DNA of 64,000 bases. Source: Rugalucina vietnamica (lineage: Eukaryota; Mollusca; Bivalvia; Lucinida; Lucinidae). The notes beneath the pieces are model-generated. The model searched no databases and was not told the DNA's origin. It was given only the letters and a program-made list of their open reading frames with translations. Both the position numbers and the translations under genes were made by a program. Location of the stretch: assembly GCA_964017185.1 (NCBI GenBank), contig OZ024874.1, positions 15,247,957 to 15,311,956 of the forward strand, in the 5' to 3' direction. Of the stretch, positions 3,930 through 52,386 are shown one piece after another. How positions within the stretch are numbered: the first letter of the stretch is position 1; every line of letters starts with the position of its first letter.

Positions 3930-3932
3930 CTC

Positions 3933-11740: not shown

Positions 11741-13266
11741 TTAGCTCACCTGAGCCGAAGGCTCACAGGTGAGCTTATAGTATACCCATGCTCCGGCGTC
11801 CGTCCGGCGTCCGTCCGTCGTTCACATTTTCAAAGATCTTCTCCTCTGAAACCGCTTGGCCAATTAAAGCCAAACTTCAGGTGGAGCATCCTATGGAAGG
11901 GGGAACGAAAGTTTATATAAATGGTCCAGGTCACATGACCAAGATGGCCGCCATGACTATAAATAGCAAAAACCTTTTAAAAATCTTCTTCTCCAGAACC
12001 AGTGGGCCGATTTCCACGAAACTTGGTATGTAGCATCGGGGACGTGGGCCCATCATAGTTTATATAAATCATGACCCTAGGATGACCTTGACCTATTTTA
12101 CGGCAAGGTCAACTTAGGTCGCCAATGCATTTGAATGGGAAAAAATGGTAAATGGCTATTTAATGGGTAAAACTTACTGGGAATAGGCAAATTGACAGAA
12201 GATTAATGTTAATGGAAAATTTTAGCCCCTGGGGGGTTGTCTGCCCCTGCCCCGGGGTTATATACATGTATATTTCCATAAAAATGAAACATCTTCTCCC
12301 CTGAAACCGCATGGCCAATCAAAGCCAAACTTCATTTGGAGCATCCTTGGGAAGGGGGAAAGAAAGGTTATATAAATGGTCAAGGTCACATGACCAAGAT
12401 GGCCGCCATGGCTATAAATAGAAAAAAACTTTAAAAATCTTCTTCTCCAGAATCAGAAGGCCAATGATTTTGAAACTTGGTGTGAAGCATCAGTGACTGG
12501 AGCTCTACAAGGTTAATATAAATCATGACCCTGGGATGACCTTGACCTATTTTACGGCAAGGTCAACATAGGTCGCTCATGCATTTGAATGGGAAAAAGT
12601 GTTAAAATGTCATTTGTAGGGAAAAACTTGCAGGAAATGGGCAAATGGACTTAAGATTGATGATTCTGAAAATATTTGGACCCCAGGGGTATGTCAGCCC
12701 CCACCCCGGGGCAATATACATGTATATTACAGTGATATTCAAAGATCTTCTTCTCTGACACTGCTTGGCCAATCAAAGCCAAACTTTATGTGGAGCATTA
12801 TTAGGAAGTGGGAATGAAAGTATATATAAATGGTCATGGTCACATGTCCAAGATGGCTGCCATGGCTATAAATAGCAAAAACCTTTAAAAATTTTTTCCT
12901 CCAGAACCAGAAGGCCTATGATTTTGAAACTAGGCATGAAGCATCAGGCAATGGAGCTCTACAAAGTTTATATAAATTGTGACCCTTTGATGACCTTGAC
13001 CTATTTTACAGCAAGGTCAAGGTCATCACAGGTCGCCAATGCATTTGAATGGGGAAAATTGTTAAAATGTCATTTGAAGGGCAAAACTTGCAGTTAATTG
13101 GCAAATGCACTGCAGTTTTATGTTTTCAAAAAGAAATTGACTCCAGGGGTTGCTCTGACCAAGCGCTTGGCTTACATACTTGGATTTTCCCATTCTAGTC
13201 AAACAAATTTATTGGTATATATCTCAGGTTTCAGGTGAGCGTTTACAGGACCATTGGTCCTCTGGT
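11741..13266 (+). mobile_element. Family A tandem-core element, copy A1
   Basis: Starts TTAGCTCACCTG with a two-tier hairpin (AGCTCACCT outer arm, inner GAGCC-GAA-GGCTC, then AGGTGAGCT). GTC-rich sequence (GTCCGTCCGGCGTCC type) and a body of about three divergent units of roughly 450 bp follow; each unit contains AAGATCTTCTTCTC-, CAAGATGGCCGCC- and TGACCTTGACCTATTTT-like phrases. The 3' end has CAGGTGAGC (complement of the 5' terminus), the hairpin AGGACC-ATT-GGTCCT, then CTCTGGT. The end lies 4-5 bp before a putative acceptor AG (13270-13271) for the CHAF1B start-codon exon. Confidence 0.85.
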
Positions 13267-13279
13267 TTTAGATTGTGAC

Positions 13280-13402
13280 ATGAAGGTGACCACGCCAGAG
13301 ATCAGTTGGCATGAGAGGGACCCAATCTACAGTGTTGATATACAGCCAGGGAGACGGAAGATCAGGAGACTGGTGTCAGGAGGGGTGGACAAGTTTGTTA
13401 GG
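13280..13402 (+). CDS. CHAF1B: CHAF1B coding exon 1 (residues 1-41)
   Basis: Starts at the ATG of [15 protein letters not shown] and ends AGG|GTAGGA, phase 0. A possible acceptor AG at 13270-13271 would give an 8-nt 5' UTR segment on this exon and imply an upstream non-coding exon, not located here. A MITE begins about 6 bp after the donor. Confidence 0.92.
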
Positions 13403-16400
13403 GTAGGATATGACCCGCCGCATGGGAAAACCAACAATGTGGTTTTCGAACAGGTCTGACACAAACCAGCCTGTACAGTCACAGAAGATGGCTAGAGACT
13501 GAAAGTTCTGGATTTAGAAAGTAGAGGACTTGTACTATTCATGTAACCGCGAAGCTGATCTGGGTCTTTGTTTTCGCCTATGCAAATTGTTGGTTTTCTC
13601 ATGAGCTGGCTCATATGTCTCAGGATTGTCTCAGTCAGTGGTAGAGTGTAGGACTAGGACTTAGAGCAAGAGGTTGGCGGTATGAAACCTACTAAGTACT
13701 TATGTCACTGAGGAAGGTTGTGGTGGCGTGTGTGGCCTAGTTGTAGAAGAGCTTCATACTCCTAAATCAAGATTGCCTGGGTTTGACCCCCACTGGTACC
13801 AGGGTTGTGTCCTTGAGCAAGACACATTATCTCCCCATAGTTCAACTTACAGTTAATAACTAGGATGGAGCAACAATCTTTCCACTGAGACTACAAATGA
13901 GTAACATCATTTTGTGTTTTGTTGATTTGAAAAAAAAAAAGAAAACAAAAAAAGCACAAAATGTTTAAAGTAGTATGATGAAAACAAGCAAACCTAAGAA
14001 AAATCATTAAAACCCTTAAAACTTTACACATTTTGTGTATCAACCTTTTTACAGATCTGGCAGATTAAGAAGGACATAGATGGTAAAGCTGTTGTAGAGT
14101 TTCTAGCTAATCTAAAGAGACACACCAAGGCTGTGAATGTATGCAGGTTCTCTCCAGATGGTAGGTTGTACTCATATTTTTCTAAATTTCTAATCTTTAT
14201 ACCATTTAGTCATTTATTTCATCCGTTTATTCCAGTTCCGTTTTAACCTTTAAGAGCATGATGTCATGTTTGTTGGACACTGCAACCAAGTTCAGATTCT
14301 TGTATATATAATCATAAGAATGTTGCCTGGATTTCCTAGAGGCTCATTTATCCAAAGGGAGCATGGTGGTATAGTGGTATAGCATCTGACTCCGAACCCA
14401 GAGGTCCTGGGTTCGATCCCCACTGGCGGCATCGTGTTGTGTCCTTGAGCAAGGCGCATTTACTCCTTAAAGTACTGGTGACTGGTCAATACCCAGGAAG
14501 CAGAGACTTCGTCCCAACATGACGGAAAATTTTTGGACTTGGATGTTAAATCTCAATACAAATAAACAAATAATTTATCCAAGTACATGTACAGAAGATA
14601 TAATGTTTAAAAAATAATGCTTGACAATATTTAAGAATTTTGAACTGCCAATTTCTAACCATTTGTAAATACAGTAAATATGTGTAGCAACCCCAGCTAC
14701 CACAGATAAAGAATTGGAATTGTGGAAAAATTACATACTATTGCAATATAAGTCCAATTGTCATAAAAACCATTTATATAATCCCATTAATTTTTATGTC
14801 TTTAGAAAGTCAATAAAAGTATCTTTCAGAAAATGTATTGTTTGTGGTGATTGAATTTCCAATAATGTGATAATTGACAGGTAATTATCGATAATTAGTG
14901 TTTTTTTTGCACCTGAGATACCTGTCCCATTTTCGGTGTGAATCTAGGTCGGGTAGGTATAAATAAATCAACATGCGATAAACATGTGTTAATTTGCATA
15001 AATAAAAATAGCATGACCAATCAGCTGAGATTTCAAGCTATCCCACAATCCTTGCCCCTTTTCATTCCGACAGCTCAAACCCACGCTATGATGAAGCAAA
15101 GTCATGGCATGTTTACTTAAAAAGTAACAGGAATTTTTTTAAAGGGCATATAAATTCTTTTTCTACTCAGTCTCATCTTTAATTTGATGTAAAAATTACT
15201 ATATTTTAACCTTTTTAAGCGCCTCGCAAAACGTCACAAAGTTCATGACCTTAATGGAAATCCCCAGTCAATGTTGTGAAAACCGGCCGCCATTGTTTGC
15301 CAGTAGATAAAATTCCAATATTTAACCCCTCGAAATAGTCCATTAATAGACAGTTTTTATTATAAAAACACCACAGAAATCTCCAATAATCATTCATCTT
15401 CTGATGCACGCTTATATCATCATCCAAACAAGAATAATAATTCATATTTTCGAAGTTTCATAAGTGTCACAAAAATAATTTGCTTGCGAGTTGAAATCCA
15501 AGATAGCGGCCAAAAAATTTGGGAGCCGGACAAAACATCCCATGGACAAAACATCCCAGGCATTTTTTGCCCAGGTGAACAAAACATCCCACCAAAATTT
15601 GCCAGGGTGGACAAAACATCCCACCAAAATTTGTCAGGGTGAACAAAACATCCCACCCAGATTTGACAGGGTGGACATAACATCCCATTTTAGATTATAG
15701 ACACACAATGCAGCATAGATCAGGGTTTCCACTGTTAGCCATCAATGCAAGCGATGATCAGGCTTTTGTTCACTGTTTACCATACAAACAAGCCTCCAAT
15801 TCAATGAATGCCAGAAAATCTCAGTAAATCGGTGTTAAATAGAGGAAAAAAGTAAGATTTAACAGCATTCTGGGTAATTATTCATTACTCTGCTTCATTG
15901 CACTCCTGTGTTCTGGGTAAGGAAAATATCAATATTTTTTCATCTTATATTTCAATTTCTTAATTTGCAAATGTTTTTTGTATGGTTATTTTAAGAAAAC
16001 TATACCTAGCCAGATGGACTCTTTTAGTATATAAGAATTTAAATGACCAACCAGAGACAAATTATCTGTATGTTCTGGGTAAGGAAAATATCAATGTTTT
16101 TTCATCTGATTTTTTTTTTCAAATTCTTAATTTCTTGATGCAAATGTTTTTGGTATGGTTATACCTAGCCAGATGGACTCTTTTAGTATATAAGAATTTA
16201 AATGACCAACCAGAGACAAAATTATCTGTATGTACAAACACCCTTATTGATCAAAGTTTGTTTGTACTAATTGGGCCAATTATGACAAATTTCCTTAATC
16301 AAATTACAGGGTTTATTACTCATTTAAACTGTTTGTCCCAAACTGTTAAATACTTTAATTCATTGATAAATAGCTACATAATTGAATTATTAAAGACTGT

Positions 16401-19400
16401 TGATTAGTTTAACCAGTAATAACCATTCATTGTATTTTAATGCACTGATCATTATGGATTTGTAGTAGCTATTTATCATTAAATTATAGTAATGTTTTAA
16501 ATAAACAAATAAGATATCATCTTGTCAAATTTTAATTTCCACAAACAGGACATACAAAATGATTTTGAAATACAAATAACATTATGTTTTCAAAGAAAAA
16601 AAATCAGTCACTATTGAAATCAATTTAAATCAAATATCTGTATTTTAGCATAATTTATATTGCACCTCAACAAATACTATACATGACAACATTTTTGTTT
16701 GCCACATCCCAAGGTCTCTAAAATTGCAATTTCTTTCAGCATGGATTTTACGTTTTTAAATTGTAAACCATTTATCAGCTATAAGAGATCAGTCTGTACA
16801 TTTACAACAGCATATAGACGTTCAGTGTTTAGGCCCCATCTACCATCTTACCGAAACGAAATGCAAGATTGGTGAATGGGTACCATCTTTAATATACATG
16901 CTAAATGTTATCACTTATCATGATGATCATTAAATTTAATTGGATAAACAGAATCTGTGATTGGATTGAGACCAAGACAATGACTTGGAAATTTCAAGTG
17001 ATTTTTTCAAATTATACTGCCTTTTGGACTTTGTTTGCATACATTACATTTTTCCATGTTGAAAATATATTTCTGTATGTTCACAATAAAGATCACAATA
17101 ATTAATCCTTTGCCAGTGTCTAAAAAAACAAAATGGGACCTTTTGTCTACCCTGTCATACCTTACTGGGATGTTTTGTCCACCCCAATAAATATAGGTGG
17201 GATGTTATGTCCACCCAGGCAAATATAGGTGGGATATTTTGTCCACCCTGGCCAAAAAACACCTGGGATGTTTTGTCCATGGGATGTTTTGTCCTATATT
17301 CAAAAATTTTGTCACAAAAAGTCCCAATAGAATGGTTGATTTTAAGCCTATTCCGATTATCGGAAAAGATGGCGTGACGTCATCAGCCAGCATCCGGGTC
17401 ACTCTCACGGGTACAAATCAGTAATGGCGGCTTCATTAAAAGCCTATATACGTATGGTTTATTCGCACAAATGACCCAAAACGCCCAAAGCTTTAAACGT
17501 TTTGTTGTGTAATGAGGCAAGATTGTTTCCAGAATGCATATTTTTTTAATTTTGAAGGAAAATATCTTGAATAGTGCAATATTTCCGTGTTTATTTATAG
17601 TTAAATATTTTGATTTTTCGGCAAGCGCGGGCGGCTTTGATCTTTCGTTATTGAACATGCATACAATATCAGACACTTCAGTCACAAATTACATTGAAAT
17701 TTTATATGACAATTTAGCGCCGTAGTATTTCTGCTGTCGTTTTGTAGTATCTGTTTTTGGAGGAGACATATTTAAGATTCTAAATAACATATCACACATG
17801 CTTAGATATTAAAACTCCAACAACTTCAACGGCACGGTTATTGTACATTTCTATCTATTTTTCTATTAAATAATCGTTACAAAATAGAATCGTGGAATAT
17901 AAGCTGCGGTTAAATAAAAACAAATCTAGAAAAATGTGAACTGAAAATAATAAGTGAATAAATTGGACAAAGTTATCCAATTACATGTATCTCTTTCTAA
18001 GAAACGCATTCAATTTTCCGAGATTAAGACAACCTTGCCAAAATATATATTTTTTTTTTTTCAGACAGATGGTGGATAATTCTTTTTCAGTGGTTCTATC
18101 ATTAAGTTAAATTTATTTTAGTTATTTTAGCTTACATTCAACGTACACGTATTAACAATTTAAGACACATTTTCCGGCACAAATATGTGTATTAAGTCTG
18201 TTGACTTTGTACCCGTGAGTTCACGGGTAATTTATCGATGACGTCATCGCCATCTTTTCCGATAAGCGGAATAAAACCCATTTCAACTAGATTTTTTGTA
18301 AGAAATTGCAACAACAGACCTGTTGAATGCTAACATGGCAGTTCATATCCAGTTTTAATGTAGGTTGGATACAAAACGTAGTGATAATGTGGATTTGATA
18401 GCTTTCCCATTACAAGTACTAACTTTTGGAAAAAACGAAACAGTGGTGAAAAATGAGATTTTTTGTGGCCAAGATTATTATTATTATTATTTTTTGTGCA
18501 TTATTAGCTCACCTGAGCCGAAGGCTCACAAGGTGAGCTAATAGGATAGCCATGATCCGTCGTCCGTCCGTCGTCCGTCGTCGTCCACAATTTCAAAGAT
18601 CTTCTTCTCTGAAACCACATGGCCGATCTAGTTGAAATTTTATGTGGAGCCTCCTTGGGTAGTGGCATTTCAAGTTTGATCGCGAAATCCAGGTCTCATG
18701 ACCAAGATGGCCGCCACGCCCATATATGGTAAAAACCCTTCGAAAATCTTCTTCTCCAGAACCGGTGGGCCGATTTCCACGAAACTTGGCATGTAGCATT
18801 GGGGACTTCAGCCCATCATAGTTTGATAAAATGATGACCCTTGGATGACCTTGACCTATTTTACGGCAAGGTCAAATTTGGAAACATAGGCTTTTACATA
18901 GGAAAAAGTGAAAACTATGGATTTTTTGAAAACTATTGCAGCCTGAGGCCTGAAAAGTGGTAGCTGCAAACAACTAATGGAGTAGATGAAGGTATGTGGT
19001 TAATATAGGTCAAGGTCATCTCTTGACCTTGGCCAGTCTGTTGTCCATACACACTTTTCAAAGATCTTCTTCTCTGAAACTGCTTGGCCAATCAAAGTGA
19101 AATTTTATTTGGAGCATCCATGGGTAGGGGAGACAAAAGTATGATCGCGAAATCCAGGTCACATGACCAAGATGGCCTCCACGCCCATATATGGTAAAAA
19201 CCACTCAAAAATCTTCTTCTCCAGAATCGGTGGGCCGATTTCCATGAAACTTGGTATGTAGCATCAAGAACTTCAGCCCATCATAGTTTGATAAAATGAT
19301 GACCCTTGGATGACCTTGACCTATTTTACGGCAAGGTCAAATTTGGAAACATAGGCTTTTACATGGGAAAAAGTGAAAACTATGGACTTTTTGAAAACAA

Positions 19401-22400
19401 TTGCAGCCTGAAGCCTGAAAAGTGGTAGATGCAAACAACTAATGGAGTAGATGAAGGTATGTGATAAATTTAGGTCAAGGTCATCTCTTGACCTTGCCCA
19501 GTCTGTCATCCATACACACTTTTCAAAGATCTTCTTCTCTGAAACTGCTTGTCCAATCAAAGTGAAATTTTATGTGGAGCATCCATGGGTAGGGAAGACG
19601 AAAATTGAATCGCAAAATCTAGGTCACATGACCAAGATGGCCGCCACGCCCATATATGGTAAAAACCACTCAAAAATCTTCTCCTCCAGAACCGGCTGGC
19701 CGATTTTCATGAAACTTGGTATGTAGCATTTGGGACTCCAGCCCATCATAGTTTGTTGAAATGATGACCCTTGGATGACCTTGACCTATTTTACGGCAAG
19801 GTCAATTTTGGAAACATAGGCTTTCACATGGAAAAAGGTGAAAACAATGGATATTTTGGAAACTCTTGCAGCCTGAGACCTGAAAGTTGCTAGATGCAGA
19901 CAACTAATGGAGTCAATGAAGGTAAGTAATTAATGAAGGCCAAGGTCATTTGTTGACCTTGACCCAAGGTCATTTAAATATCAAAATTAAAATTAAAGTT
20001 TTCTCAGAAATCACTGGGTTTGGAAACTATTGCAGCCTGAGACATGAAACTTTGCAGATGCAGACAACTTATTAAGTCAATAAAGGTGTGTGAGTATTCA
20101 AGGTCAAGGTCATGTAATGATGACTTAATACTCCAAGATCAGGCTTCAGGTGAGGGTTCTCAGGACCAATGGTCCTCTGGTATTGCATTAAAGTCAAAGT
20201 AACCATGTATTGTTTAAGAGACTGAGAACATTAATCAAATACATATGGATAGACACTACTTACTTACATGTATTTTTATCACCAGAGTATTATATGTTTT
20301 TAAAACATTAACCTGGAGGGGGTAACTGGATGTGGGTAAACTTATAACATTTTTGTGCCCAATTTTATAAACAATTGTCTATGCCTGTCACAATTCCAAG
20401 CAGTCTCATCAACTTGTTTGAGGATTTGATTCATTGAAATTATTTATCTGTTTATGGGATGTTCTCATTTTATATTATTGACTTTTGCTTTACTGCGACT
20501 GTCCAACCGATTAACAGCTTTGGTCATATGGAGCTGTCCGAGTTAGAGCTGAGGTCTATCCAGGATTTTTCGAAAGGGTTTCATATTGACCAAATGGGAT
20601 ATGTTTGCATAATCTGATCTACTATGCAAAACTATCCCAATGAATTGATCTCAAGGAGGGGTTCAAACAACACCCTGTGCTACTCCAGAGGGGAAACTTG
20701 TTTCTTTTTTTCTTAAATCGGAAAAACTGGATGCAGCCAGGGCAGTGATATATATATTTATAACAACTGCTGCTTAATACATGGCAAGCAGGTCTTACAG
20801 GAACTTCTTTGACAAGACAAACAAAATTGAATTTTATGCATTTTAATGTATTTTAAAACAAGTTTTATTTCATCAATAATTTATTTAGCTTTTCTATCAA
20901 CTCTTTATCTGATATGCTGAATGTTTGAACGAGACTTGAATGTTAAAAATCCAAAACAACTTTAAATCTTGAATTATTTTCATAATAACTTCCTTCCCAT
21001 GTTAGATACAGCAAAAACAACAACAGAAATGAAAAGAACAGGAAAAGGGAGCGCGGTGGCGTAGTGGTAGAGCGTCGGACTCCGAATCGAGAGGTCCTGG
21101 GTTCGAACCCCACAAGCGTCACCGTGTTGTGTCCTTGAGCAAGGCACATCTACTCCCTACAGTACTGGTTAAACCCAGGAAGCGTTGGCTCCGTCCCGAC
21201 ATGACTGAAAAATTGTTGACTGGGACGTTAAGCCTCAACACAAACAAACAAACAAAAGAACAGGAAAAAATACACTAAAATATCAAGTTTCATACAGATA
21301 CCTTGAAAAATAAAGAAGTTACAGCATTTTATTTAGAATTTTCAACCGTGACGGTTCCATCATCGCGCGCTGTCAAAGAGCTTCCGCAATAGCAGAAAAA
21401 TTCCAGGAAAAGTGCGATTTCCAGGAACTTCAAAATGCTATAACTTTGGTTCTAGTAGACATATTTTAAAAAACTAAACTGTTCTGTGCAGCTTTTTTAA
21501 AGCTGTACTCAATGCAATTTGATTTAAACACATAGCTATTAAATGAAAAATCAGCTGGGGTTGCTAATATGTGTATTGTGTAATAAATGTAATAACCTTA
21601 AAAAATGATATGATTTCAGGTGAAATTCTTGCCACTGCTGGAGATGGTGAGTAACAGGTTATGAGTAATTTTCTCACCAACTATAATAGAATTTTTCAAT
21701 GATTCATATAAATTTAATGTTTTCAAAGATGCTTTCATGCTATTTTGGTAATTTTAAAGATGAATGGAAAAATTGCAAACCCTAAAGACAGGATACCTTA
21801 CAGTATGACTTCTTTTACTCTAGGGAGAGTGGTGGCCTAGTAGAAGAGTACAGGGCTCTGGAGCTAGAGGTCCTGGGTTTGATACCTACCTTAACTTTAT
21901 AGTGTTCTTGAGCAAATCACTAAGTGCTGATTAATACCCAGTAAGTGATGGCTCTACAGTTCTTGGCCTGACTGAAAAAACACCAAATCAAATCTTTCAG
22001 ACAATGCAATAATTCTGTGGACGTTGAGTGAGCAGTTGGGGTCAGAAAACATATTTCAAGAGGATGAAGAAGAAAATAAAGAAAACTGGTCTCTGGTCAA
22101 GGTTCTCAGGTAATGTACAGTCACTGACAAAATGAGCCATGATGCGACAAAACTGGTATTTGGGGTTTCCTACTAGGTCTGACACAAACCGGTCTGTGCA
22201 GTCACAGAAGAAGTAAAATACTTTGACCGTGCAGCTTAGCCTCTGACATAAATATGCATTTGTTGATCGGACTGCTTAAATAACTATGTTATCAATGATG
22301 GGACTCTATGACGGTAAACAATATATGACCACGTGCTTCACATGACAGTGGGAAAATGTGTAAACTAAATAGGTTTCCCTTTTACAGTGTTTACAAAATT

Positions 22401-25400: not shown

Positions 25401-28400
25401 TGCTTCCTGATATCAGCTTTGATTTCTCTCCGTAAAGATTCAAATGTACTGGTATACATACAGAATTAAACAACCATGAAAGAAAACTGCCTTATGGCTA
25501 TGAATGGCCTCATGTCGAGTGTGGTTGAACTTGCTGAAGGACACTTTCTGGCAGCATGAGCATTTGTATGGACCTGTCTGTGTATGTCGGAGCTCATGCT
25601 GCCGATGGGACGATCTGTTGTTGAAAACTTTCCCACAAAAGCGGCACACACGGCAATCCATATCTGAAACATAAAGAATTTGCAAAAATTGGTATCAAGC
25701 CCGAGCATACTAGGCAGTCATAAGCTATATGTGTCAAGTCCGCACCAAGAGTCTGATCAAACAGAATAGATGACAGGGATGATTTTTCACTTCGTTCGGC
25801 GAACATTTACTATTTTGTTGTTTTAATATTCGGCTGTTTTGTAGAACTGAAAAAAGTGTCACGGGTATCTATGTGTGTCAATGGTATCATTTACGTTTTT
25901 TAGCTCACCTGAGCCGAAGGCTCATAGGTGAGCTTATAGTATACCCATGCTCCGTCGTCCGTCGTCCACAATTTCAAAGATCTTCTTCTCTGAAACCGCT
26001 GGGCTGATTGTTCTCATATTACACATACACCATCTACAGGTAGGGGGAAAGAATAATTGTTTTTTGTTTTGATCGGATAAGGACTCTGGTTGCTATGGCA
26101 ACTTATGCTTCCCATAGACTTATAATGGAAAAAAAGTGAAAATTGCCAGTTTTTGCTGTCTTGTTGGAGATATTTGAATTTTGTTTTTGCAGAAATGTTT
26201 ATTGAGTAGTCCTCTACGTTTCATGTGACTTTTGTCCTAATCCTTCATTTTGATTGGTTGCAGGGGCCCCATATAGGGCAAAATTTCGAAAAACATTCAA
26301 AAATCTTCTTCTCAGAAACTGTCATGGGGATGAAGCCTATACTTTGTATACATGTTTCTGACAGTGGCCTCTACATAATTTGTGTTTTTTATTCCAGGCG
26401 GATAAGAACTCTGGTTGCTATGGCAACTTAAAGTTTCCATAGACTTATAATGGGAAAAGTGGAAATTGGCTATTTATGCGCTAAAATTGCAGACATTTGA
26501 ATTTTGTTTTTGCAGAAATGTTTATTGAGTAGTGTTTGACGTTTCTTGCGAGTTTTGTCCTAATCCTTTATTTTGATTGGTTGCTGGGGCCCCATAAAGG
26601 GCAAAATTTTGAAAAAAACATTCAAAAATCTTCTCCTCAGAAACTGTCAAGTGGATGAATCCTGTACTTTGTATACATGTTCCTGACAGTAGCCTCTACA
26701 TAATTTGTGTTTTTTATTCCAGTGGGATAAGAACTCTGGTTGCTATGGTAACTTTAAGTTTCCATAGACTTATAGTGGGAAAAGTGGAAATTAGCTATTT
26801 TTTGAAAACTATTGTAGCCTGAGATCTGAAAAGTGGTAGATGCAAACAATTAATGGATTAGATGAAGGTATATGATTAATTTAGGTCAAGGTCATCTCTT
26901 GACCTTGGCCGGTCTGTCGTCCATACACACTTTTCAAAGATTTTTTTCTCTGAAACCACTCGGCCAATCAAAGCCAAATTTTATATGAAGCATCTATAGG
27001 AAGTGGGAACCAATGTATATATAAATAATCCAGGTCACATGACCAAGATGGCTGCCATGCCCATATATGGTAAAAACCCTTAAAATATCTTCTCCAGAAC
27101 CGGTGAACCGATTTCAATGAAGCTTTGCATGAAGTATGGATGATCCAAGTACTACAATGTGTATATAAAACATGACCCTGTGGTTACCTTGACCTATTTT
27201 ATGGCAAGGTCAACATAGGTCGTCAATGCATTTGAATGGGGAAAACTTTTTAAACTGTCATTTTAAGTGAAAGTCTCGCAGGAAATGGGCAGTAGGACCG
27301 AAATTTAATGATTCTGAAAAAAAAAATGGACCCCAGGGGCTCATCTGCTTTTAAAATGTTATTTGAAGGGGAAAATCAGCAGGAAATTGGCAAATGGACA
27401 GAATATTGATTATTCTGAAAAAAGAAAATGGCCCAAGGGCTTCAGCTGTCCCTGCACTGGGGTTAAATACCATAATATTCAAATATGTTTATTGGTATAT
27501 GAAGCAGATTTCAGGTGAGCGTTTACAGGACCATTGGTCCTCTGGTTCAGGTTTAAACTCCCAAAGAAATCGCATTTTTAGTACCAATTTAATGGAATTT
27601 CTTTCTTTAGACGGTTTGTATATAGAACATATGCATTAGTGGTTTATTATAGCAATTTATGACAATTATTCCCAAAACTAATAGATTCTATTACAAGAGT
27701 GTAAGGGTATCCGACACAAAAAACCATTTGTAGTTAAGTGTTCCAAAGAACAGAAATGGGTCAACTTATCGAGGATTCACGGATCATAAGGTAGAAGTTA
27801 GTATCGTACGGTACCAGTGTCATTTGCTCCAAAAACACAGTTATTAGCGAAAAAATACGCTTACCATATCCGAAACGACTCCTTCAACACTTGGATTTTT
27901 CAAAAATATAGCCTGTTTCAATGTTTTGGTCACGTGACAGTGACGTACGTTCTCCCCCTTGTAACCACTAAGCCAAAAGAGTTGACTCTTGACTCAGTAT
28001 GTCAGAGATTGTACTTATCAGATGCATTGTATCGAATAGCTGTGCTATTTATAGACGCTACGCATCATGTGATCTGACAATGCGACCTTCCAACCATGGT
28101 ATGAATGAATGAAGGTGCAATGGGACATAACAATACCGTTTTGGAACTTAGTTTGTTGTTATTTTAATACTCTTCAAGAAACTTTTGCTAATTGTTTGAT
28201 TTTGGTTGTTGCTAGAAGTGCCTTAGCTGAGGTACTTATAAGAATTTTTGATCACAATGTTATGTTTTGGCAAAATCGCTCATTAGTTCTATTATCACCA
28301 TTTCTGCCAAGAAACAAGTTAACAGGTATAATTGCAAAATATGCAGACCCTGTCAAATGATAACTAAGTTACGAAATTTTCATGTGTAAATTTTCTATTT

Positions 28401-31400: not shown

Positions 31401-34400
31401 AAATGAATTTTCATTTATAATATGTTAAAAAATCAAATTATAGAAATTATATAAAGCTCTAGAATGTGAAAGCAACTGGACATTTCATATCAAGCCTCTG
31501 TTATCACTGGTTATAAGCCTAAAAAAATTGCTTATTGACTTATTTTCCTTTTGCAGACAAGAAAAACAACAATTTAAAAGAATGGGAGAAATACTCAACC
31601 ATATTCTGGTATGATTGTGTTAGTTATTTTTTGTTTTTGATGAAACTTTGGCTTGAAAGCGAGAGTAAAAATCAGGCTTCTTGAGCTAATTTCAAGTACT
31701 ACATTGTTGATGCTTTAGAATCTACATGTATTGGTTATGTATCAAGTGAAGTTCTATGATTTTCTTCACTTTAAACATTCTTAATAAAAGGTACTAAAAA
31801 CATTGTGTTTATAATTATGATTGTAATGCAGAGATAGTAATGCCTTAGAAATGTGATGACTCTGGAAAAATCAACGTTGACTGATCAGCCTGCTGCTCTT
31901 GTTGGAGCAGAGGGTATATGGTGGCCAGGTGGTTAGAATACCAGGCTCTGGATTGGTCCCCATCCTATCTAAGCCAGTTTGTGTCCTTGAAATAGACACA
32001 TTAGATCTCACTTGTAACATTGGTTAATGCCTATTAAGTGGCGGCTCCTTCCAGAAATGGCTGAAAACTGTTTTCCCACTTGTAACATTGTTTAATGACC
32101 ATTAAGCAGTGGCTCCTAGAAATGGCTGAAATTTTTTGTAGACAGATATTTATTCACAAAACAAACTGAATCAGAAACAGTCTAATCTAGTTCATCACAA
32201 CAAATCTAAACCTATGTTTCAGTTTACCTTACCGGATAGTGTTTGCCGTTGCAACAGAAGATTCTATCCTGCTATATGACACACAGCAACAACAGCCGTT
32301 TGGATATGTTTCTAATGTACATTATCACCAGCTCAGCGATCTCTCATGGTATGTTGTTTTAGTAAAGAATTGAAAAGGAAAATACACTCATAAAGCTTTT
32401 AAGTACTTCCAGCATTCTTTTGAAATTGCAATTTCACGAATCACAATAAAATTTTCCAATCTGTTTGTGGTACTATTAAAGATATCGAGTTTGAGCTCTG
32501 ACAAGTCAGGCCCTGCTAGTACAAATGTCAGATGTTTTAAGCTCACCTGAGCCGAAGGCTCACAAGGTGAGCTTATAGGATGGCCATGCTCCGTCGTCCG
32601 TCCGTCGTCGTCCGTTCACAATTTCAAAGATCTTCTCCTCTGAAACCGCTAGGCCAATCAAAGCCAAACTTCATGTGGAGCATCCTTAGGAAGGGGGAAC
32701 GAAAGTTTATATAAACGGTCGAGGTCACATGACCAAGATGGCCGCCATGGCTATAAATAGCAAAAACCTTTAAAAATCTTCTCCAGAACCAGTGGGCCGA
32801 TTTTCACGAAACTTGGTATGTAGCATCGGGGACACAGGCCCATCATAGTTTATATAAATCATGACCCTAGGATGACCTTGACCTATTTTATGGCAAGGTC
32901 AACTTAGGTCGCCAATGCATTTGAATGGGAAAAAATGGTAAAATGCTATTTAATGGGTAAAACTTACTGGGAATAGGCATATGGACAGAAGATTAATGTT
33001 AATGGAAAATTTTAGCCCCTGGGGGGTTGTCTGCCCCTGCCCCGGGGCTATATACATGTATATGACCAAATATTCAAACATCTTCTTCTCTGAAACCGCT
33101 AGGCCAATCAAAGCCAAACTTCATGTGGAGCACTTGGGAAGGGGGAATGAAAGTTTATATAAGTGGTCAAGGTCACATGACCAAGATGGCCGCCATGGCT
33201 ATAAATAGCAAAAATGTTTAAAAATCTTTTTCAGAACCAGAAGGCCTGTGATTTTGAAACTTGATGTGAAGCATCTGGGAATGGAGCTCCACAAAGTTTA
33301 TATAAATCATGACCCTGGGATGACCTTGACCTGTTTTACGGCAAGGTCAACTTAGGTCTCCCATGCATTTGAATGGGAAAAAAATGGGAAATGTAATAAA
33401 ATGGCAGAATACTTGCTAGAAATGAGCAAATGGACAAAAGATTTATGTTTAAGAAAATATTTTGGGCCCAGGTGGTTGTCTGCCCCTGCCCCGGGGCTAT
33501 GTACATGTATATGACCATAATATTGAAACATCTTCTTCTCTGAAACCGCTAGGCCAATCAAAGCCAAACTTTTTGTGGAGCATCCTTAGGGAGAGGGAAT
33601 GAAAATTTGTATAAATGGTCAAGGTCACATGACCGAGATGGCCGCCATGGCTATAAATATCAAAAACGTTTAAAAATCTTCTTTTTCAGAACCAGAAGAC
33701 CTATGATTTTGAAACTTGGTATGAAGCATCTGGGAATGGAGCTCTACAAAGTTTATATAAATCATGACCCTGGGATGACCTTGACCTATTTTACGGCAAG
33801 GTCAACTTAGGTCGCCCATGCATTTGAATGGGAAAAAATAGGAAAATGTCATGGCAGAAAACTTGCTAGAAATGAGCAAATGGACAGAAGATTTATGCTT
33901 ATGAAAATATTTTAGGCCCAGGGGTTGTCTGCCCCTGTCCCGGAGCTTTATACATGTAGATGACCATAATATTCAAACATTTTTTTCTTAGAAACTGCTT
34001 AGCCAATCAAAGCCAAACTTTATGTGGAGCATCCTTAGGAATAGGAAATGAAAGTTTATATAAATGGTCAAGGTCACATAACCAAGATGGCCACCATGGC
34101 TATAAATAGCAAATTTTTTTTAAAAATCTTCTTCTTCAGAACCAGAAGGCCTATGATTTTGAAACTTGGCATGAAGCATTAAGGAACGGAGGTCTACAAA
34201 ATTTGTATAAATCAGGACACTGGCATGACCTTGACCTATTTCATGGCAAGGTCAACTTAGATCGCCCATGTATTTGAATGTTAAAATGTCATTTGAAGGA
34301 CAAAACTTGCAGTTAATTGGCAAATGGACTGAATTTTTATGATTTGAAAAAGACATTGACTCCAGGAGTTATTCTGACCCTGCCCTAGGGTTATATACAT

Positions 34401-36446: not shown

Positions 36447-36692
36447 CATTTGTGCCGCATCGTGAGAAAACCAGATTTTGGCCTATGCGAAAACAAAGGC
36501 GCAGATCAGCTTCGCAGTAACTGCTAAGCTGATCAGCGCTTTTGTTTTCGCTACACGGATAGTACAATTTCTCTTCTTCTTGAATCCGAAATTTCAAGCT
36601 TCTAGCCTGCTTCTGTGACTTTACAGGTTGGTATGTGTCAGACCTGGTCGGAAACCCCGAAGCCCGGTTTTCGCATCGCGGCTCATTTGTAA
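36447..36692. mobile_element. Palindromic MITE family D, complete
   Basis: Opposite orientation to 36088. Centre GATCAGCTTCGCAGTAACTG then CTAAGCTGATC; ends TGTGCCGCATCGTGAGAAAA / TTTTCGCATCGCGGCTCA. Confidence 0.88.
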
Positions 36693-36888
36693 ACAGCCAA
36701 ATCTTATGTTCTCTTTTTTGGCTGAATTCTGGTTGATAATTGTCAAAGTGGGCACACCACATCTGTTCACATGGAGGATAGTTGTTGAATCGTAGTAGCT
36801 GTAAAGTAGGAAAGCTGTCAAAGGCTTATGTGCCTACCTAGATGTGACTGGAACGGTCAACGGTTTCATGTGGTCATACTTCTCTGTT

Positions 36889-37801
36889 TATACCCCCGGC
36901 ATACGAAGTATTAGGGGGTATATAGTTTTTGCTTTTTCCGTCTGTCTGTTTGTCTGTAAACTTTTTTTGTGTCAAAGATTGCTCAGGAACTACTTAACCT
37001 AGAATTTTCAAAATTGGTACAAAGCTTGGGTATGTCAAGTTGTATTGTGTATTTGAGAATCAACAATCTCAGGCTTATCATTCCCTTTATTTATCCATTT
37101 TTCTCTCTATCCGAGAAAATTTTCCATCATATCAGCTCAGTCTGTATAAGAGTTAGAGACTTCAAATTTTATATGCATGTTCAGAATAACCAACTCTATT
37201 ACTGAAAACAAGATTGTGATTCTGTGGTTTACTTTTGTCTTCTTTTTTTACTTTGTTTCTTTTCCAATCTGTCACTCCTATACAAATCTGCACCATTTTG
37301 TGTCAAAGATTTCTCAGGGACTACTTAACCTAGAATTTTGAAATTTGGTACAAAGCTTGGGTATGACAAGTTGTATTGTGTATTTGAGAATCAACAATCT
37401 CTGGCTTATCATTCCCTTTATTTATCCATTTTTCTCTCTATCTGAGAAATTTTTCCATCATAACAGCTCAGTCTGTATAAGAGTTAGAGACTTCAAATTT
37501 TATATGCATGTTCAGAACGGCCTACTCTATTACTGAAAACAAGATAATGATTCTGTAGTTTACTTTTGTCTTCTTTTTTTTACTTTGTTTCTTTTACCAT
37601 CTGTCACTCCTATACAAATCTGCACCTTTTTGTCCGGCATAGAAAGTATTAGGGGGATATAGTTTTTGCTTTTTTATTTATGAATATATTTTTGTTGGAT
37701 GTAACACTAGATGTATACCTTTTTCTGTAATCTGCTTTTTGTCTCAAAGTGGTATGAACGCTGATGGCTACCGCCGGGGGTATGTGAGCTTTGCTCACTT
37801 T
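36889..37801 (+). mobile_element. Family C tandem-core element
   Basis: The 5' end TATACCCCC-GGC-ATAC-GAA-GTAT-TA-GGGGGTATA folds into the same two-tier GAA hairpin as families A and B. CCGTCTGTCTGTTTGTCTG follows, then two body units of about 330 bp (GTGTCAAAGATT...TATACAAATCTGCACC), 90% or more alike. The 3' end has CCGGGGGTAT (complement of the 5' end) and the hairpin GTGAGC-TTT-GCTCAC. Confidence 0.85.
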
Positions 37802-37884
37802 TCCTATATTTTTGTCAGTAATGACCAGCTCTTTGTTGGTTTTTTTAAGGTGTAGATCATGAACTGTTCTTAATAGCATCACTG

Positions 37885-39215: not shown

Positions 39216-39456
39216 TTGAACCACTGCATGAGAAAATCAACAATCTGCATATGCGAAAACAAAGGCGCAGATCAACTTTGCAGTAACTGCACAGCTGATC
39301 AGCGCCTTTGTTTTCACTACACGAATAGTACAAGCCCTCTTCTTCTCAAATCTGAAATTTCAATCATCTAACCTTCTTCTGTGACTATACAGGCCGGTTT
39401 CTGTCGGACCTGTTCGGAACCACAGATTGTTGGATTTCTCGTGCTTAGGCTCATTT
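39216..39456. mobile_element. Palindromic MITE family D, complete
   Basis: Ends TTTGAACCACTGCATGAGAAA / TTTCTCGTGCTTAGGCTCA; centre GATCAACTTTGCAGTAACTG then CACAGCTGATC, an imperfect palindrome. Confidence 0.88.
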
Positions 39457-39491
39457 TGTATTTATAAGGTAATTGTTTCAGTCTCCTTTTA

Positions 39492-39732
39492 TATGAGCCT
39501 GTGCGTGAGAAAAACAACAATTTGGGGTTCCGACCAGGTCCGACACAAACCGGTCTGTACAGTCACAGAAGATGGTTAGAGGCTTGAAATTTTGTATTTA
39601 AGTAGAAGAGGGAATGTACTATCCGTGTAGCGAAAACAAAGGCGCTGATCAGCTTCGCGGTTACCGCGAAGCTGATCTGCGCCTTTGTTTTCGCCTATGC
39701 AGATTGTTGGTTTTCTCATGCACTGGCTCAAT
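39492..39732. mobile_element. Palindromic MITE family D, complete, opposite orientation
   Basis: Ends TATGAGCCTGTGCGTGAG / CTCATGCACTGGCTCA; perfect centre GATCAGCTTCGCGGT / ACCGCGAAGCTGATC. Only 35 bp from the previous copy, so the pair can form a large hairpin. Confidence 0.9.
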
Positions 39733-41414: not shown

Positions 41415-41542
41415 GCACTCTTAACCTCTCAGCCACAGGGGCTGCTGAGGTCTTTACCTTTATCATTGAAGCATGTTATACTTCACAATATTAGGGTAAT
41501 AGTGCCATGACCTTTAGAAATTTTGAGGAGTGTAATTATACG

Positions 41543-41702: not shown

Positions 41703-41889
41703 CGCCTTAATGCAGTAAAGCTTGGTTTTCATACTATTTACCTTGAAAAATGCTAAAATCGCAGCCATTTTGAATTAAAACGTTTTGACGTCATTGTGAT
41801 GTGTGCGCTTATTGTGATGTGTCCTATACAACCAATGTTAAAAAAGAACACTTGAACACAGGGTGAGCCTTTTGGCAGGAGAGTTACAT

Positions 41890-46008: not shown

Positions 46009-46385
46009 ATGATAAATCAAATCAAATCAAATCAAATCAAATTTATTCAACCAATTCAGGCCACCGGCCTATGATAGAACAACATATATACAATCTATAC
46101 GAGTAGCAATTTAACAAAGAAGGAAAAGATAATTGCATGCATACATATTTGAATTTACATAAACAGTTTATATGTGTAAGGCATTGAATCGTGAAATACT
46201 TGTATAATTTGGAATAGCTGCTAAAGAAATACATTTAACTGAATATACCAAATACCTATGATAATTTGACTTTACATAAACAGTTTATATGTGTAAGGCA
46301 TTGAATCGTGAAATACTTGTATAATTTGGAATAGCTGCTAAAGAGATACATCTAACTGAACATACCAAATACCAATGATCATTTG
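46009..46385 (-). mobile_element. CR1/L2-like 3' tail inserted in the foldback element
   Basis: Begins with (ATCAA)n and AATTTATTCAACC, then GGCCACCGGCCTATG, the reverse of a CR1/L2-type 3' end with pentamer tail. It contains a 117-bp tandem duplication (46157 and 46274, ACATAAACAGTTTATATGTG). Confidence 0.65.
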
Positions 46386-46709
46386 ACATTTCGTTTCCCA
46401 ACATCAAAACTAAAACTCATATCAATTTCAAACTAGCATAATTTTTCGTCTTTCGAAAGCATAGTATAAGTATTTTGCTAATGATGTAATCATCTGCTCA
46501 GTTCTTTTTAGTTTTCGTTAACGTTCGAACATAAAGAAAGTCAAATTGCTTACATATCTTATTACATGATTATTGCACATTGTCCAAGCAAGTACTTGGT
46601 GCCATTTTCAACACTCTATAGCGTTTGGTAGCTGAGATATAAGCGATTTGGTTGGTACACCCCCTTCATTTTTCTATGATTTTTCTCTAATATCTATATT
46701 TCTTATTCA

Positions 46710-47511
46710 AATAAGAGCTGTCGCAGGACAGCGTAGCTCGCCTGACTTGTGCTTTGCCACTAAATTTATAAAAATCTATGACCCATGACCTTGACCTCAA
46801 GGTCGCTCAGGTGGGTCGTAAAAGCATAAAATTTCAGACCAATTTCTACAAACATGTAAAGTATCAACTTGATCCATCAACATGTTCAAGAGTTGAAGAC
46901 TTCTAACAACTTTAACGAAAAATTTCAACAAAAAATTTCTAAATCTGTGACCTTGACCTCACGGTCACCCAGGGTGGATCATGATGGTACTCCATAAAAC
47001 TTCAGACAAATATCTTCAAACGTGCAAGGTATCAACTTGATCCATCAACATGTTCAAGAGATATAGACTTCTTAAATCTTTAATGAAAAACTTTAACATA
47101 AAATTTCTAAGTCCGTGACCTTGACCTCAAGATCACCCAGGTTAGACCACGATGGTACTGCATAAAACTTCAGACCAATATTTACCAACATGCAAAGTAT
47201 CAACTTGATCCGTCAACATCTTCAAGAGATATAGACTTCTAAAAACTTTAATGAAAAACTTTAACATAAAATTTTTAACTCTGTGACCTTGACCTCAAGG
47301 TCATCCAGGATGGGTCATGATGGTACTGCATAAAACTTCAGACCAATATCTACCAATATGCAAAGTATCAACTTGATACATATACATGTTCAAGAGATAT
47401 AGACTTCTAAAAACTTTAACCGAAAGTGTGACGCGGACGTACACGTAAACGTAAACGGGGACGACCGAGGTGACAACAATAGCTCTGTGCGCTTCGTGCA
47501 GGCGAGCTAAT
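46710..47511 (-). mobile_element. Family B tandem-core element, copy B1
   Basis: Read on the minus strand it starts TTAGCTCGCCTG, then a GAA-loop hairpin (TGCAC-GAA-GCGCA, one mismatch) closed by AGCTC/GAGCT, then GTCGTCC and a TTTACG/GTACG repeat. The body has three to four units of about 165 bp with TGACCTTGACCTCA-like sites (AAGGTCA inverted). It ends CAGGCGAGC, hairpin GCTGTC-CTGC-GACAGC, CTCTTATT. Inserted in the right arm of the foldback element. Confidence 0.85.
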
Positions 47512-49530: not shown

Positions 49531-49934
49531 AGACACTAAACAGGAAAGTGTCTTAGTTTTAACCAAAGTACATGTACAGCGAAAAATTTAAAGAATGCAT
49601 ACTTTGACTAAAACTTCGACATTAATTCTACAAAGAAACAAACTAACGCTAGTCTGTCAGATATTCAAGTTTTTGACACTCAAGGGGAGGCAACTCAAAG
49701 ATTGATCGATCTGGCCCCATATTGTGTTTACATTTTCTTCATTATATGTCAATGGGAGCTATCTGTTGCCATTGAAACCATCTGCTTCAAAACCTAATGC
49801 ATGGGATCTCCCACCCCAGTGATGCTTCATGTAAAAATGTGATTGCATTTAGCCTACTGGTCTGGGAGATACATATTTGAAAGTCTTAACAGATGCACAG
49901 ACGAGTCACATTCGGCTCGGTTGAGTTTAAAATT
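49531..49934. other. Spacer, no recognised feature
   Basis: Sequence between the foldback element and copy B2, with no gene or repeat recognised. Confidence 0.4.
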
Positions 49935-52386
49935 AATAAGAGCTGTCGCAGGACAGCGTGCTCGACTGCTTCTGACCATTGTCAAACATAAGGCAAACCC
50001 GACCAGTAACCCAAAGCATTATGCTCATACATCTTTTTGCCTTGATGCAATATGGCAAAATCACTGAACCATGAAGGTTAACTATAACTAAGATTTAAAG
50101 GTCTCACTCATATTGTGAAAGAAGTGTGTTCATATACCAACTGAGTGCTAAGACACAAGGCAAAATCACTGAACCGTGAAAAAAGGTCACACTGACCTAT
50201 AAGTATTTCAGGGTCAAAGGTCTAGTGATACTTACTCATAATGTGAAAGAAATATGATCATATACCCATTCAGTGTTGAGATATAAAGCAAAATCACTGA
50301 ACCATGAAATTAGGTCATAGTGACCTATAAGTATGTTTGGGTTAAAGGTGTGGTCATACTCATTCATAATCAGAAAGAAGTATGAAAAAATACCAACTGA
50401 GTGTCGAGATATAAGGCAAAATCACTGAACCATGAAATTAGGTCACAGTGACCCAGGACTACTTTATGGTCAAAGGTCTTGTCATACTCATACATATCGT
50501 GAAAGAAGTATGTTCATATACCAATTGAGTGCCGAGATATAAAGGAAAATCACTGAACCGTGAAATTAGGTCATATTGACCTAGGACTACTTTAGGGTCA
50601 AAGGTCTTGTCATACGCAAACATAGTGTGAAAGAAGTTTGTTCATAAACCACTTGAGTGCCGAGATATAAGGCAAAGTCACTGAACCATGAAATTAGGTC
50701 ACAGTGACCTATAAGTATATTTGGGTCAAAGGTCTGGTCATACTTACTCATAATCTGAAAAAAGTATGAAAATATACTAATTGAGTGTCAAGATATAAGG
50801 CAAAATCACTGAACCGTGAAATTAGGTCACAGTGACCTAGGACTACTTCAGGGTCAAAGGTCTTGTCATATGCAAACATACTTTGAAAGAAGTTTGTTCA
50901 TAAACCATTTGAGTACCGAGATATAAGGCAAAATCACTGAACCGTGAAATTAGGTCACAGTGACCTATAAGTATATTGGGGTCAAAGGTCTGGTCATACT
51001 CACTCATAATCTGAAAAAAGTATGAAAATATACTAATTGAGTGTCAAGATATAAGGCAAAATCACTGAACCGTGAAATTAGGTCACAGTGACCTAGGACT
51101 ACTTCAGGGTCAAAGGTCTTGTCATATGCAAACATACTTTGAAAGAAGTTTGTTCATAAACCATTTGAGTACCGAGATATAAGGCAAAATCACTGAACCG
51201 TGAAATTAGGTCACAGTGACCTATAAGTATATTGGGGTCAAAGGTCTGGTCATACTCACTCATAATCTGAAAAAAGTATGAAAATATACTAATTGAGTGT
51301 CAAGATATAAGGCAAAATCACTGAACCGTGAAATTAGGTCACAGTGACCTATAAGTATATTGGGGTCAAAGGCCTGGTCGTACTAACTCATAATCTGAAA
51401 GAAGTAAGAAAATATACTAATTGAGTGTCAAGATACATGTATAAGGCAAAATCACTGAACCATGGAAAGTAGGTCAACCGACCCTTACCGTCATGACACA
51501 CAAGTCAGTGTCACAAAGTCAAAAGATGAATGACCAACCATCCTCCTAAGTTGTTTCTATTAAGAAATAAAAAGAAAAAAAAATCGAAGAGTTCTAGATT
51601 TTGACCTCTAGCCCCGCCCCCTGACTCCGACCCAGAGGTCCGATGTCATGGAACCTAAAGTGTATGAAGTATGAATGCTTTATGATAGGTTGTTGTCAAG
51701 ATATGCCTCCTTGTAAAAGTTACACAGCAGTACATCTATTTTTTAGTGTTCTAGTTTTTAACCTCCAGCCCCACCCCACAGGCATGGACCCAGGGGCCCG
51801 ATGCCATGGAATGAAACTCAACCCTACAGGGTACCTATGGTCCGAGTATGAAAGCCCTCTGATAAAAAGTTTTCAAGATATAGACTTCTAGAATACTATA
51901 TCACAGAAAAGCCATTATTATTAATGGTGTTCTAGATTTTAACCTCTAGCCCCACCCCCTGGCATGAACCCAGGGATCTGATGCCATGGAATGAAAGCCG
52001 ACCCTACAGGGTGTCAATGGCCCGAGTATCAATGCTTTCTGATGAGTGGTTGTCAAGATATGGACTTCTAGAAAACTTTAACATAAGAATTGCCATTTTT
52101 GAAGGTGTTCTAGATTTTAACCTCCAGCCCCACCCCCTGGCCTGGACCCAGGGGCCCGATGCCATGGAATGAAAGCTAACCCTACAGGGTATCTATGGTC
52201 CAAGTATGAATGCTTTCTGATGAGTGGTTGTCAAGATATGGACTTCTAGAAAACTTTAACGCAAGTGTGACGCGCACGCGCACGGGAACGCGCACGGGAA
52301 CGCGCACGGGAACGGGAACGGGAACGGGAACGTGGACGACCGGGGTGACTGCAATAGCTCTATGCACTTCGTGCAGTCGAGCTAAA
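49935..52386 (-). mobile_element. Family B tandem-core element, copy B2, with two kinds of tandem array
   Basis: On the minus strand: TTAGCTCGACTG start, perfect TGCAC-GAA-GTGCA hairpin inside AGCTC/GAGCT, then GTCGTCC and a (GTTCCC)n/(GCGTGC)n stretch (52262-52335). Next come about four units of roughly 160-180 bp (51590-52260, with AGCCCCACCCCCTGG and GTCAAGATATGGACTTCTAG), then ten units of exactly 128 bp (50184-51350). It ends GCAGTCGAGC, hairpin GCTGTC-CTGC-GACAGC, CTCTTATT. Confidence 0.87.
50184..51350. repeat. 128-bp tandem array with palindromic AGGTCAnnnTGACCT sites
   Basis: The 15-bp palindrome starts at 50184, 50312, 50440, 50568, 50696, 50824, 50952, 51080, 51208 and 51336, exactly 128 bp apart. 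Nine match AGGTCAnnnTGACCT perfectly and one (50440) differs at the last base. Each unit also has GGGTCAAAGGTCT or a variant, about 12 bp after the palindrome: two half-sites with one-base spacing. A degenerate eleventh site lies near 51471. This is the inverted-repeat-3 arrangement of oestrogen-receptor-type sites plus a DR1-like site. Confidence 0.93.

Follow-up and report, generated by a model that had tools for sequence, protein, structure and literature searches.

Probable Helentron derivatives with a folding, G-N(N)-A-capped 5′ end in a lucinid clam

We analyzed seven tandem-repeat elements (A1–A4, B1, B2 and C) in a 64,000-nucleotide stretch of the genome of the lucinid clam Rugalucina vietnamica (contig OZ024874.1, positions 15,247,957 to 15,311,956; hereafter "the window"). 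With good confidence we assign all seven to the HINEs, i.e., non-autonomous derivatives of Helentrons (Helitron2-type elements), with a folding G-N(N)-A 5′ end and, for family A, a likely partner. The 5′ end folds as an outer stem, a 5′ loop of 0–3 nt, an inner stem, an apex of the form G-N-A or G-N-N-A, a 3′ bulge of 0–3 nt and the return of the outer stem; the same 5′ box is complementary to a box near the 3′ end, which is followed by a separate hairpin. A preliminary description of this DNA had suggested a Helentron-like origin, and three lines of evidence support this suggestion: family-A ends occur on a Rep-helicase element, the 5′ design recurs in three further Rep families, and an empty site places insertion between two T residues.

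Ends of the seven elements

According to the preliminary description, the 5′ end forms a GAA-triloop hairpin, and the 3′ end holds a box that complements the 5′ end as well as a hairpin of its own; all three features are present in 7/7 copies (Table 1). A subterminal inverted repeat (subTIR) and a 3′ stem-loop were recognized in every element, including A2, whose 3′ box (CAGGTGAGG) carries one mismatch. That the stems stay paired holds for six of the seven; in B1 the inner tier reads TGCAC-GAA-GCGCA, with an A.C mismatch, and the hairpin folds poorly (−4.5 kcal/mol, compared with −7.6 kcal/mol for B2; DNA parameters), good folding being confined to the outer tier. Under the same parameters, the 5′ hairpins of A1–A4 yielded −13.5 to −14.2 kcal/mol and that of C −8.0 kcal/mol. 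The two tiers are separated in family A by a 3′ bulge of 2–3 nt, and in C and B by an internal loop with 3 nt on the 5′ side and 2 nt on the 3′ side. The expected GTC-rich microsatellite and tandem central repeats were also found, the bodies being tandem repeats with differing units; family F, identified outside the window, has mainly GTGTGT in place of the GTC stretch. To describe the three families as unrelated was an overstatement, as A and B share the start TAGCTC.

Table 1. The seven HINEs of the window and their terminal structures (window coordinates)
Feature	Coordinates	Strand	Remarks
A1 HINE, family-A Helentron	11742..13266	+	matches the 5′ portion of the Rep-bearing A element (88.5% identity across 1474 bp)
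A1 5′ two-tier hairpin	11743..11775	+	apex GAGCC-GAA-GGCTC; −13.5 kcal/mol, DNA parameters
A1 3′ box and hairpin	13232..13261	+	CAGGTGAGC; AGGACC-ATT-GGTCCT
A2 HINE	18505..20182	+	degenerate 3′ end, 20144-20182, 6 mismatches/39
A2 5′ two-tier hairpin	18506..18539	+	
A3 HINE	25901..27547	+	
A3 5′ two-tier hairpin	25902..25934	+	
A3 3′ box and hairpin	27512..27541	+	
A4 HINE	32539..34492	+	
A4 5′ two-tier hairpin	32540..32573	+	
A4 3′ box and hairpin	34457..34486	+	
C HINE	36888..37803	+	TATACCCCC type
C 5′ two-tier hairpin	36889..36922	+	apex ATAC-GAA-GTAT
C 3′ box and hairpin	37774..37798	+	CCGGGGGTAT; GTGAGC-TTT-GCTCAC
B1 HINE	46710..47509	-	
B1 5′ hairpin	47480..47509	-	A.C mismatch in inner stem
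B1 3′ box and hairpin	46717..46744	-	CAGGCGAGC; GCTGTC-CTGC-GACAGC
B2 HINE	49935..52384	-	
B2 5′ two-tier hairpin	52355..52384	-	apex TGCAC-GAA-GTGCA
B2 3′ box and hairpin	49942..49968	-	CAGTCGAGC; GCTGTC-CTGC-GACAGC

An energy-scored scan of the window, which gave each 9-nt box pair its best 5′-hairpin plus 3′-hairpin score, was compared with 60 first-order Markov controls. A1–A4 scored −17.9 to −19.2, and the best of the 60 controls −12.2. The scan itself was unspecific: 43 window candidates scored −12 or lower, many of the top ones deriving from another palindromic repeat family, and the Markov control is informative for family A alone, B1, B2 and C lying outside the best 25 of the 43. A looser structural scan of the window did not discriminate, each of 20 controls giving 41–72 matches.

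In the host genome (1,089,854,562 bases in 47 contigs), the pattern GAGCCGAAGGCTC occurs 10,660 + 10,532 times, and its reversal 0 + 2 times. With the family-A stems fixed, there are 20,500 triloop ends and 4,298 + 4,298 = 8,596 tetraloop ends, with no matches to either control. Genome-wide ends thus do carry the hairpin, a point on which the preliminary description had made its reading depend. One could also suppose that these are unrelated tandem repeats flanked by hairpins through coincidence, and their bodies are indeed tandem repeats of different units; this has next to no probability, being refuted by the approximately 29,100 family-A ends with an intact inner stem, set against no control matches, and by a Rep-bearing element with the same ends (discussed below). 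Outside this genome, pattern scans of viral contigs for the A 3′ and 5′ ends gave either 11 chance-like matches or none, and a scan of general genome contigs gave five loci, in bacterial records.

A Rep-helicase partner for family A

A search of the host genome for the Helitron_like_N domain (PF14214) returned 409 candidates, of which 150 were scored, all above the family cut-off. Of these matches, 146 are stop-free and four have an internal stop; the 14 control genomes yielded none. Pieces around seven of the 150 loci were inspected. At one locus (C7), an open frame of 2621 amino acids lies between an A 5′ end (11862313), behind which come GTC repeats and an A tandem core, and an A 3′ end (11876206-11876242); the element measures approximately 13.9 kb. 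Searched as separate halves, the frame matched DUF6570 (2e-21), a Herpes_teg_N model (4e-6) and PIF1 (2.5e-18), as well as Helitron_like_N, at 1e-14 in the second half and at 5e-6, below cut-off, in the first. Its C-terminus weakly resembles Exo_endo_phos (PF03372; E 0.0011, 19.2 bits, below the cut-off of 24.5), a domain that several of the listed homologs of this protein carry. Named Helentron protein relatives, 45–55% identical, come from bivalves including Ruditapes, Saccostrea, Pinctada, Pecten and Mytilus. The family-A partner is likely autonomous. At a second Rep locus (C9), an A 5′ end lies 6.6 kb upstream, the 3′ side being outside the piece read.

At three other loci, representing family F (C13), family G (C12) and a C-type relative, C2, both ends were found together with a Rep match and a frame of known length. 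These ends were located by pairing of the 5′ and 3′ boxes or by outer-stem motifs, with the loop unconstrained. The anticipated autonomous Rep/helicase element with the same two ends was found, as a likely candidate, for A, and for C in its relative C2 only, as a Rep match.

Searches of viral contigs, with a single protein and with a 13-sequence alignment, returned no relatives of the Rep protein. Helentron proteins with 52–69% identity (P0150, P0153, P0194 and P0235) are annotated in drafts of clam-symbiont genomes (Ca. Thiodiazotropha and a Lucinoma symbiont); these are probably host contamination. Upstream of another Rep locus (C5) lies a 43-nt near-perfect palindrome with a C-GAA-G apex (GTGGACTATTGCCCGAGGCCGAAGGCCGAGGGCAATAGTCCAC; L058, reverse strand, 1446-1488), which is not accompanied by GTC repeats and was not recognized as an element end.

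The insertion site

The C7 unit is nested in a B element, whose 5′ end lies at 11862189 and whose 3′ box lies at 11877785. An uninterrupted B copy (L029) supplies the empty site, CACACTTTCGGTTAAAGTTTTTAAAATTG (core AAAGTTTTTAAAATTG); its occupied counterpart is GGTTAAAGTTTT-[TAGCTC...CTCTGGT]-TAAAATTG or, in short form, AAAGTTTT-[T...GGT]-TAAAATTG. Comparison of the two indicates that the Rep-bearing A element inserted between T and T, with no duplication beyond the T run, and that the hairpin sits at the element end rather than internally, the alternative that the preliminary description had singled out as fatal to its reading. This evidence comes from one site and from the Rep-bearing A element; no empty site could be established for any of the seven window elements.

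The same site bears on whether the repeats are instead MITE-like (miniature inverted-repeat transposable element) cut-and-paste transposons, with imperfect terminal inverted repeats and target-site duplications. Short inverted boxes do occur at both ends, and elements of this sort had previously been labeled MITEs (PMC4067079; this and the other published accounts are cited from excerpts). Nevertheless, the 3′ repeat is subterminal and followed by another hairpin, no target-site duplication accompanies the one empty site examined, and the partner is a Rep-helicase; on these grounds we rule the MITE explanation out as very improbable.

Two further arrangements involve B elements. In L042 (reverse strand, 1519-7290), there is an apparent nesting of B in B near the T run that took the Rep-bearing A element, and in L046 (3784-3860), an A 5′ end is inserted exactly at a B 3′ end. 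The T run of B may be an insertion hot spot.

The apex of the 5′ hairpin

Eight families or subfamilies with differing stems all have G-N(1–2)-A at the apex: A (GAA, plus a tetraloop form, GTTA or GTCA), B (GAA), C (ATAC-GAA-GTAT), C2 (AAAAC-GAA-GTTTT), F (CCAACTTT-GAA-AAAGTTGG), G (GCTTT-GAA-AAAGT, with GGA in one copy, L031), H (ACC-GAA-GGT) and D (CCC-GACA-GGG, or AGG in another register). The constant GAA loop of the preliminary description was thus only partly borne out: GAA is dominant, but GTTA, GTCA, GACA and GGA also occur, so the rule is better written as G-N-A or G-N-N-A. The hairpins of C2, F, G, H and D were found without fixing the loop sequence, and their direction was read off the Rep frame, the 3′ box or the GTC-rich stretch that comes next; in one of the scans, element ends were picked by eye from 125 hairpins, on the basis of outer-stem length, GTC and known ends. 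The four occurrences of GAA (C2, F, G and H) have P = (1/64)^4 if loops are random and families independent, an independence of descent that is not established. In one scan for two-tier hairpins with GTC, 20 of 28 carried GAA.

The loop was also tallied within families. Among 100 listed of the 20,500 family-A triloops, 87 are GAA and eight AAA, with TAA, GAG, TTC, CAA and GTA found once each; among 100 listed of the 8,596 tetraloops, 92 are GNNA, five ATTA, two TTTA and one ACTA. The G-to-A losses at the apex look like decay, because they lie within a CpG. When the outer stem TATACCCCC/GGGGGTATA was fixed and 10–22 inner bases were left free, 2,300 places were found, with no control matches. 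Fifty of these were listed, and the loop is GAA in 49 and AAA in one, on at least four inner stems: AAAAC/GTTTT in 41 (among them the AAA copy; spacers of two types), ATAC/GTAT in three, ATATAC/GTATAT in two, TATAAC/GTTATA in one, the similar ATAAC/GTTAT in one and decayed stems in two. As this outer stem is palindromic, a strict count would be of GAA-or-TTC; the places were oriented by the GC-rich 5′ spacer and A-rich 3′ spacer of copies of known direction.

Stem covariation, proposed earlier as a check, is seen between families, where both outer and inner stems vary yet pair, but is weak within family A. There, one inner pair is altered in 271 copies; of the 100 among these that were listed, 94 retain the original partner, many of them as T.G. 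Weak compensation of this kind is as expected for dead copies; the covariation lies between families.

An approximately 40-nt degenerate core (ATATCTTTTGAACCAGTGGATGG...) follows the GTC stretch in H, G and B (L049:2699-4575, L056, and B1 and B2 of the window). With H as the query and 1000 shuffles, the motif was supported in G (0 shuffles), B1 (1) and B2 (0) and borderline in C2 (10); it was unsupported in A (140), D (127), F (271) and C (821 of 1000 shuffles).

Pairing of the two ends and a proposed mechanism

Duplexes between the 5′ and 3′ boxes yielded −11.9 to −16.6 kcal/mol, compared with −4.5 to −14.2 kcal/mol for the 5′ hairpins, values of two kinds that are not strictly comparable; the duplex is clearly favored in B and C. 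The base that differs between B1 and B2 falls in the internal loop of the hairpin (unpaired in B1 and at most a lone pair in B2), and the 3′ box carries the matching base. Both ends were seen in four more B elements; three are cognate in this respect (two in L042, if nested, and one in L047/L046), and the fourth, L029, has a decayed 3′ box. Such a cognate change may be one evolutionary event. Because of these pairing data, together with the proposal of Bao and Jurka (PMC3627910), we favor a switch, in which a folded 5′ end serves initiation, and 5′:3′ pairing with the 3′ hairpin serves termination.

We suggest the following sequence of steps. Either as exposed single-stranded DNA or through extrusion under supercoiling, the 5′ end would form a hairpin with a sheared G.A pair as its cap. 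The Rep domain would read the shape of this hairpin, such that the stems may drift while pairing holds. At termination, pairing between the 5′ and 3′ boxes would open the 5′ hairpin, while the 3′ hairpin would mark the end. HINEs with these ends would be moved in trans by the Rep-helicase protein. DNA loops of the forms d(cGNAg) and d(cGNNAg) show exceptional stability. Recognition of a folded, single-stranded 5′ end by the transposase is, as a prediction, most likely. A broader proposal, to which we give somewhat less than even confidence, is that Helentrons generally are defined by a two-tier 5′ single-stranded DNA hairpin with an obligatory sheared-G.A cap, d(cGNAg)- or d(cGNNAg)-like, the fold rather than the sequence being read.

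Several observations weigh against these proposals. (i) Concerning partners, none was found for B; no ends were seen in the pieces inspected at Rep loci C3 and C5 (for C5, one 3-kb piece); for C2, there are two candidates for the 3′ box, and the 3′ hairpin is weak; and the coding content of the F, G and C2 frames is known as a Rep match and a frame length alone. (ii) Concerning the apex, that of D depends on the register (one scan read AGG and the fold gives GACA); the eight non-GAA hairpins among the 28 comprise one D, one A on the other strand and six judged to be non-ends; apex-less copies exist (the broken D-like end L028 and the A-like end L049); and the F and G loops are closed by T-A, for which the phage N4 precedent (see below) predicts poor extrusion. 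(iii) Concerning pairing, the 100 listed family-A copies with a changed inner pair include three that are compensated and three that are double but unpaired. Beyond the limited comparability of the energies, family A gains little from the duplex (in A1, −14.1 vs. −13.5 kcal/mol for the hairpin), and in A2 the duplex is weaker than the hairpin (−11.9 vs. −13.8 kcal/mol). (iv) Shared descent of the apex is possible.

This last point belongs to an alternative that we judge the less probable, although it deserves to be taken seriously: the elements are Helentrons and HINEs whose apex was simply inherited from a common ancestor or arose as a side effect of sequence-specific binding, with Rep reading the duplex sequence or only the subTIR, and folding incidental. 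The families found do start T-TA or T-TAT and share the GAA apex, compensation within family A is weak, and HINE-Mo of mites is reported, in the excerpted text, to lack a separate inverted repeat (IR) (PMC4067079). Conversely, outer and inner stems vary between families yet pair, and the loop alternates between G-N-A and G-N-N-A, such that the G...A is kept and the sequence is not. We know of no test of what the Helentron Rep recognizes. If the fold is indeed what is read, a single recognition rule would leave stem sequences at liberty to diverge into new families, and this would account for the origin of new HINE families served by one transposase. The ends of Helentrons are difficult to delimit; a G-N(N)-A apex that stays fixed on changing stems would, if true, provide both a testable recognition rule and a search signature for Helentrons across animals. 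A genome with so many intact family-A ends, together with its stop-free Rep matches, is a good system for such a test.

Other features of the window

The nuclear-receptor half-site AAGGTCA occurs 37 times in A1–A4, five times in B1, once in B2 and not in C, compared with 12 times in the remaining 53 kb. Half-site-rich tandem cores lie at 11830-13112, 18591-19966, 32623-34280, 46824-47419 and 50103-51476. B2 holds nine perfect AGGTCAnnnTGACCT palindromes (palindrome counts halved), and the window has none elsewhere. A second abundant, MITE-like repeat of GATCAGCT-rich palindromes (e.g., GGCGCAGATCAGCTTCGCGGTAACCGCGAAGCTGATC) dominated the inverted-repeat scan, with sites at 36490-36660, 39230-39730, 53270-53470, 56600-56770, 58940-59180 and 61820-62050.

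An open frame of 1157 amino acids (3915-7388) has relatives carrying PHD, endonuclease and reverse transcriptase domains; its reverse transcriptase is 98% identical to other proteins on megabase contigs and 45% identical to a Mytilus protein, and similar reverse transcriptase fragments lie near 24449-25289. Exon-like sequence at 13277-13460 and beyond, with A1 ending just upstream, tentatively resembles chromatin assembly factor 1 subunit B. A tRNA-like match (34.4 bits) lies at 22913-22985 on the reverse strand.

Comparison with known systems

Canonical Helitrons (Helitron1) have 5′-TC and CTRR-3′ ends and no 5′ hairpin. We rejected them as a model: the elements here start with T-AGCTC (A and B) or TTATA (C), all with a 5′ hairpin.

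In Helitron2 (Bao and Jurka 2013, PMC3627910), the 5′ asymmetrical terminal inverted repeat (ATIR) is part of a 5′ hairpin, the 3′-ATIR lies just upstream of a 3′ hairpin, and two related elements show compensatory changes; pairing of the ATIRs is proposed to destroy the 5′ hairpin as replication ends. In the window elements too, the 5′ box takes part in the 5′ hairpin. The excerpted text of that paper, figures apart, gives no apex rule, and the A partner described here differs in having a C-terminal endonuclease-like region (below cut-off).

For Helentrons, HINEs and DINE-1 (Thomas 2014, PMC4067079; Yang and Barbash 2008, PMC2374699), the published features are subTIRs, an IR beside the 5′ subTIR, a GTCY microsatellite, central repeats, a 3′ stem-loop, TT insertion and a Rep-helicase-endonuclease partner. 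The subTIRs, IR, GTC-rich repeats, central repeats, 3′ stem-loop and TT insertion are shared with the elements studied here, as is a Rep-helicase partner in the case of family A. The DINE-1 of D. melanogaster would have a C-GTA-G apex of the same geometry, an unconfirmed point, as the published table gives a 13-nt subTIR only. That subTIR is ATACCCGTTACTC (PMC2374699, Table 1), and the DINE-1 end predicted from it was not found in viral contigs. The inner tier and G...A apex go unmentioned in the excerpts of both papers (PMC4067079, PMC2374699).

Cg_HINE of the Pacific oyster (PMC7492417) has a subTIR of 11–12 bp, a complementary IR after 1–12 bp, a satellite-like core, a GTC-rich microsatellite in several elements, a 3′ palindrome and TT insertion. 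These are likewise bivalve HINEs, and the subTIR, IR, GTC-rich microsatellite, satellite-like core and 3′ palindrome recur in the window; the difference is that the 1–12 bp between subTIR and IR is termed a "short segment" in the excerpted text, with no inner hairpin or loop rule (PMC7492417).

A precedent for the apex comes from the promoters of phage N4, where a C-G closing pair and a loop with 5′ G and 3′ A, forming a sheared G.A, are required for extrusion (PMC4496689). Supercoiling at physiological levels suffices to extrude the promoter hairpin of the N4 virion RNA polymerase, and it is the shape of this hairpin that is read (PMC4496689). The likeness lies in a small DNA hairpin with a C-G closing pair and a three-base 5′G...3′A loop; the N4 structure is a promoter rather than a transposon end, and no homology is claimed. 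Our literature search found no publication joining the triloop with Helitrons. The preliminary description was not aware of the GAA two-tier hairpin as a described hallmark; the design of two hairpins and a complementary box is in fact published (PMC3627910, PMC4067079, PMC7492417), and in the excerpts of those papers the apex rule was not found. The HINE architecture is therefore known, and the G...A apex rule looks unreported.

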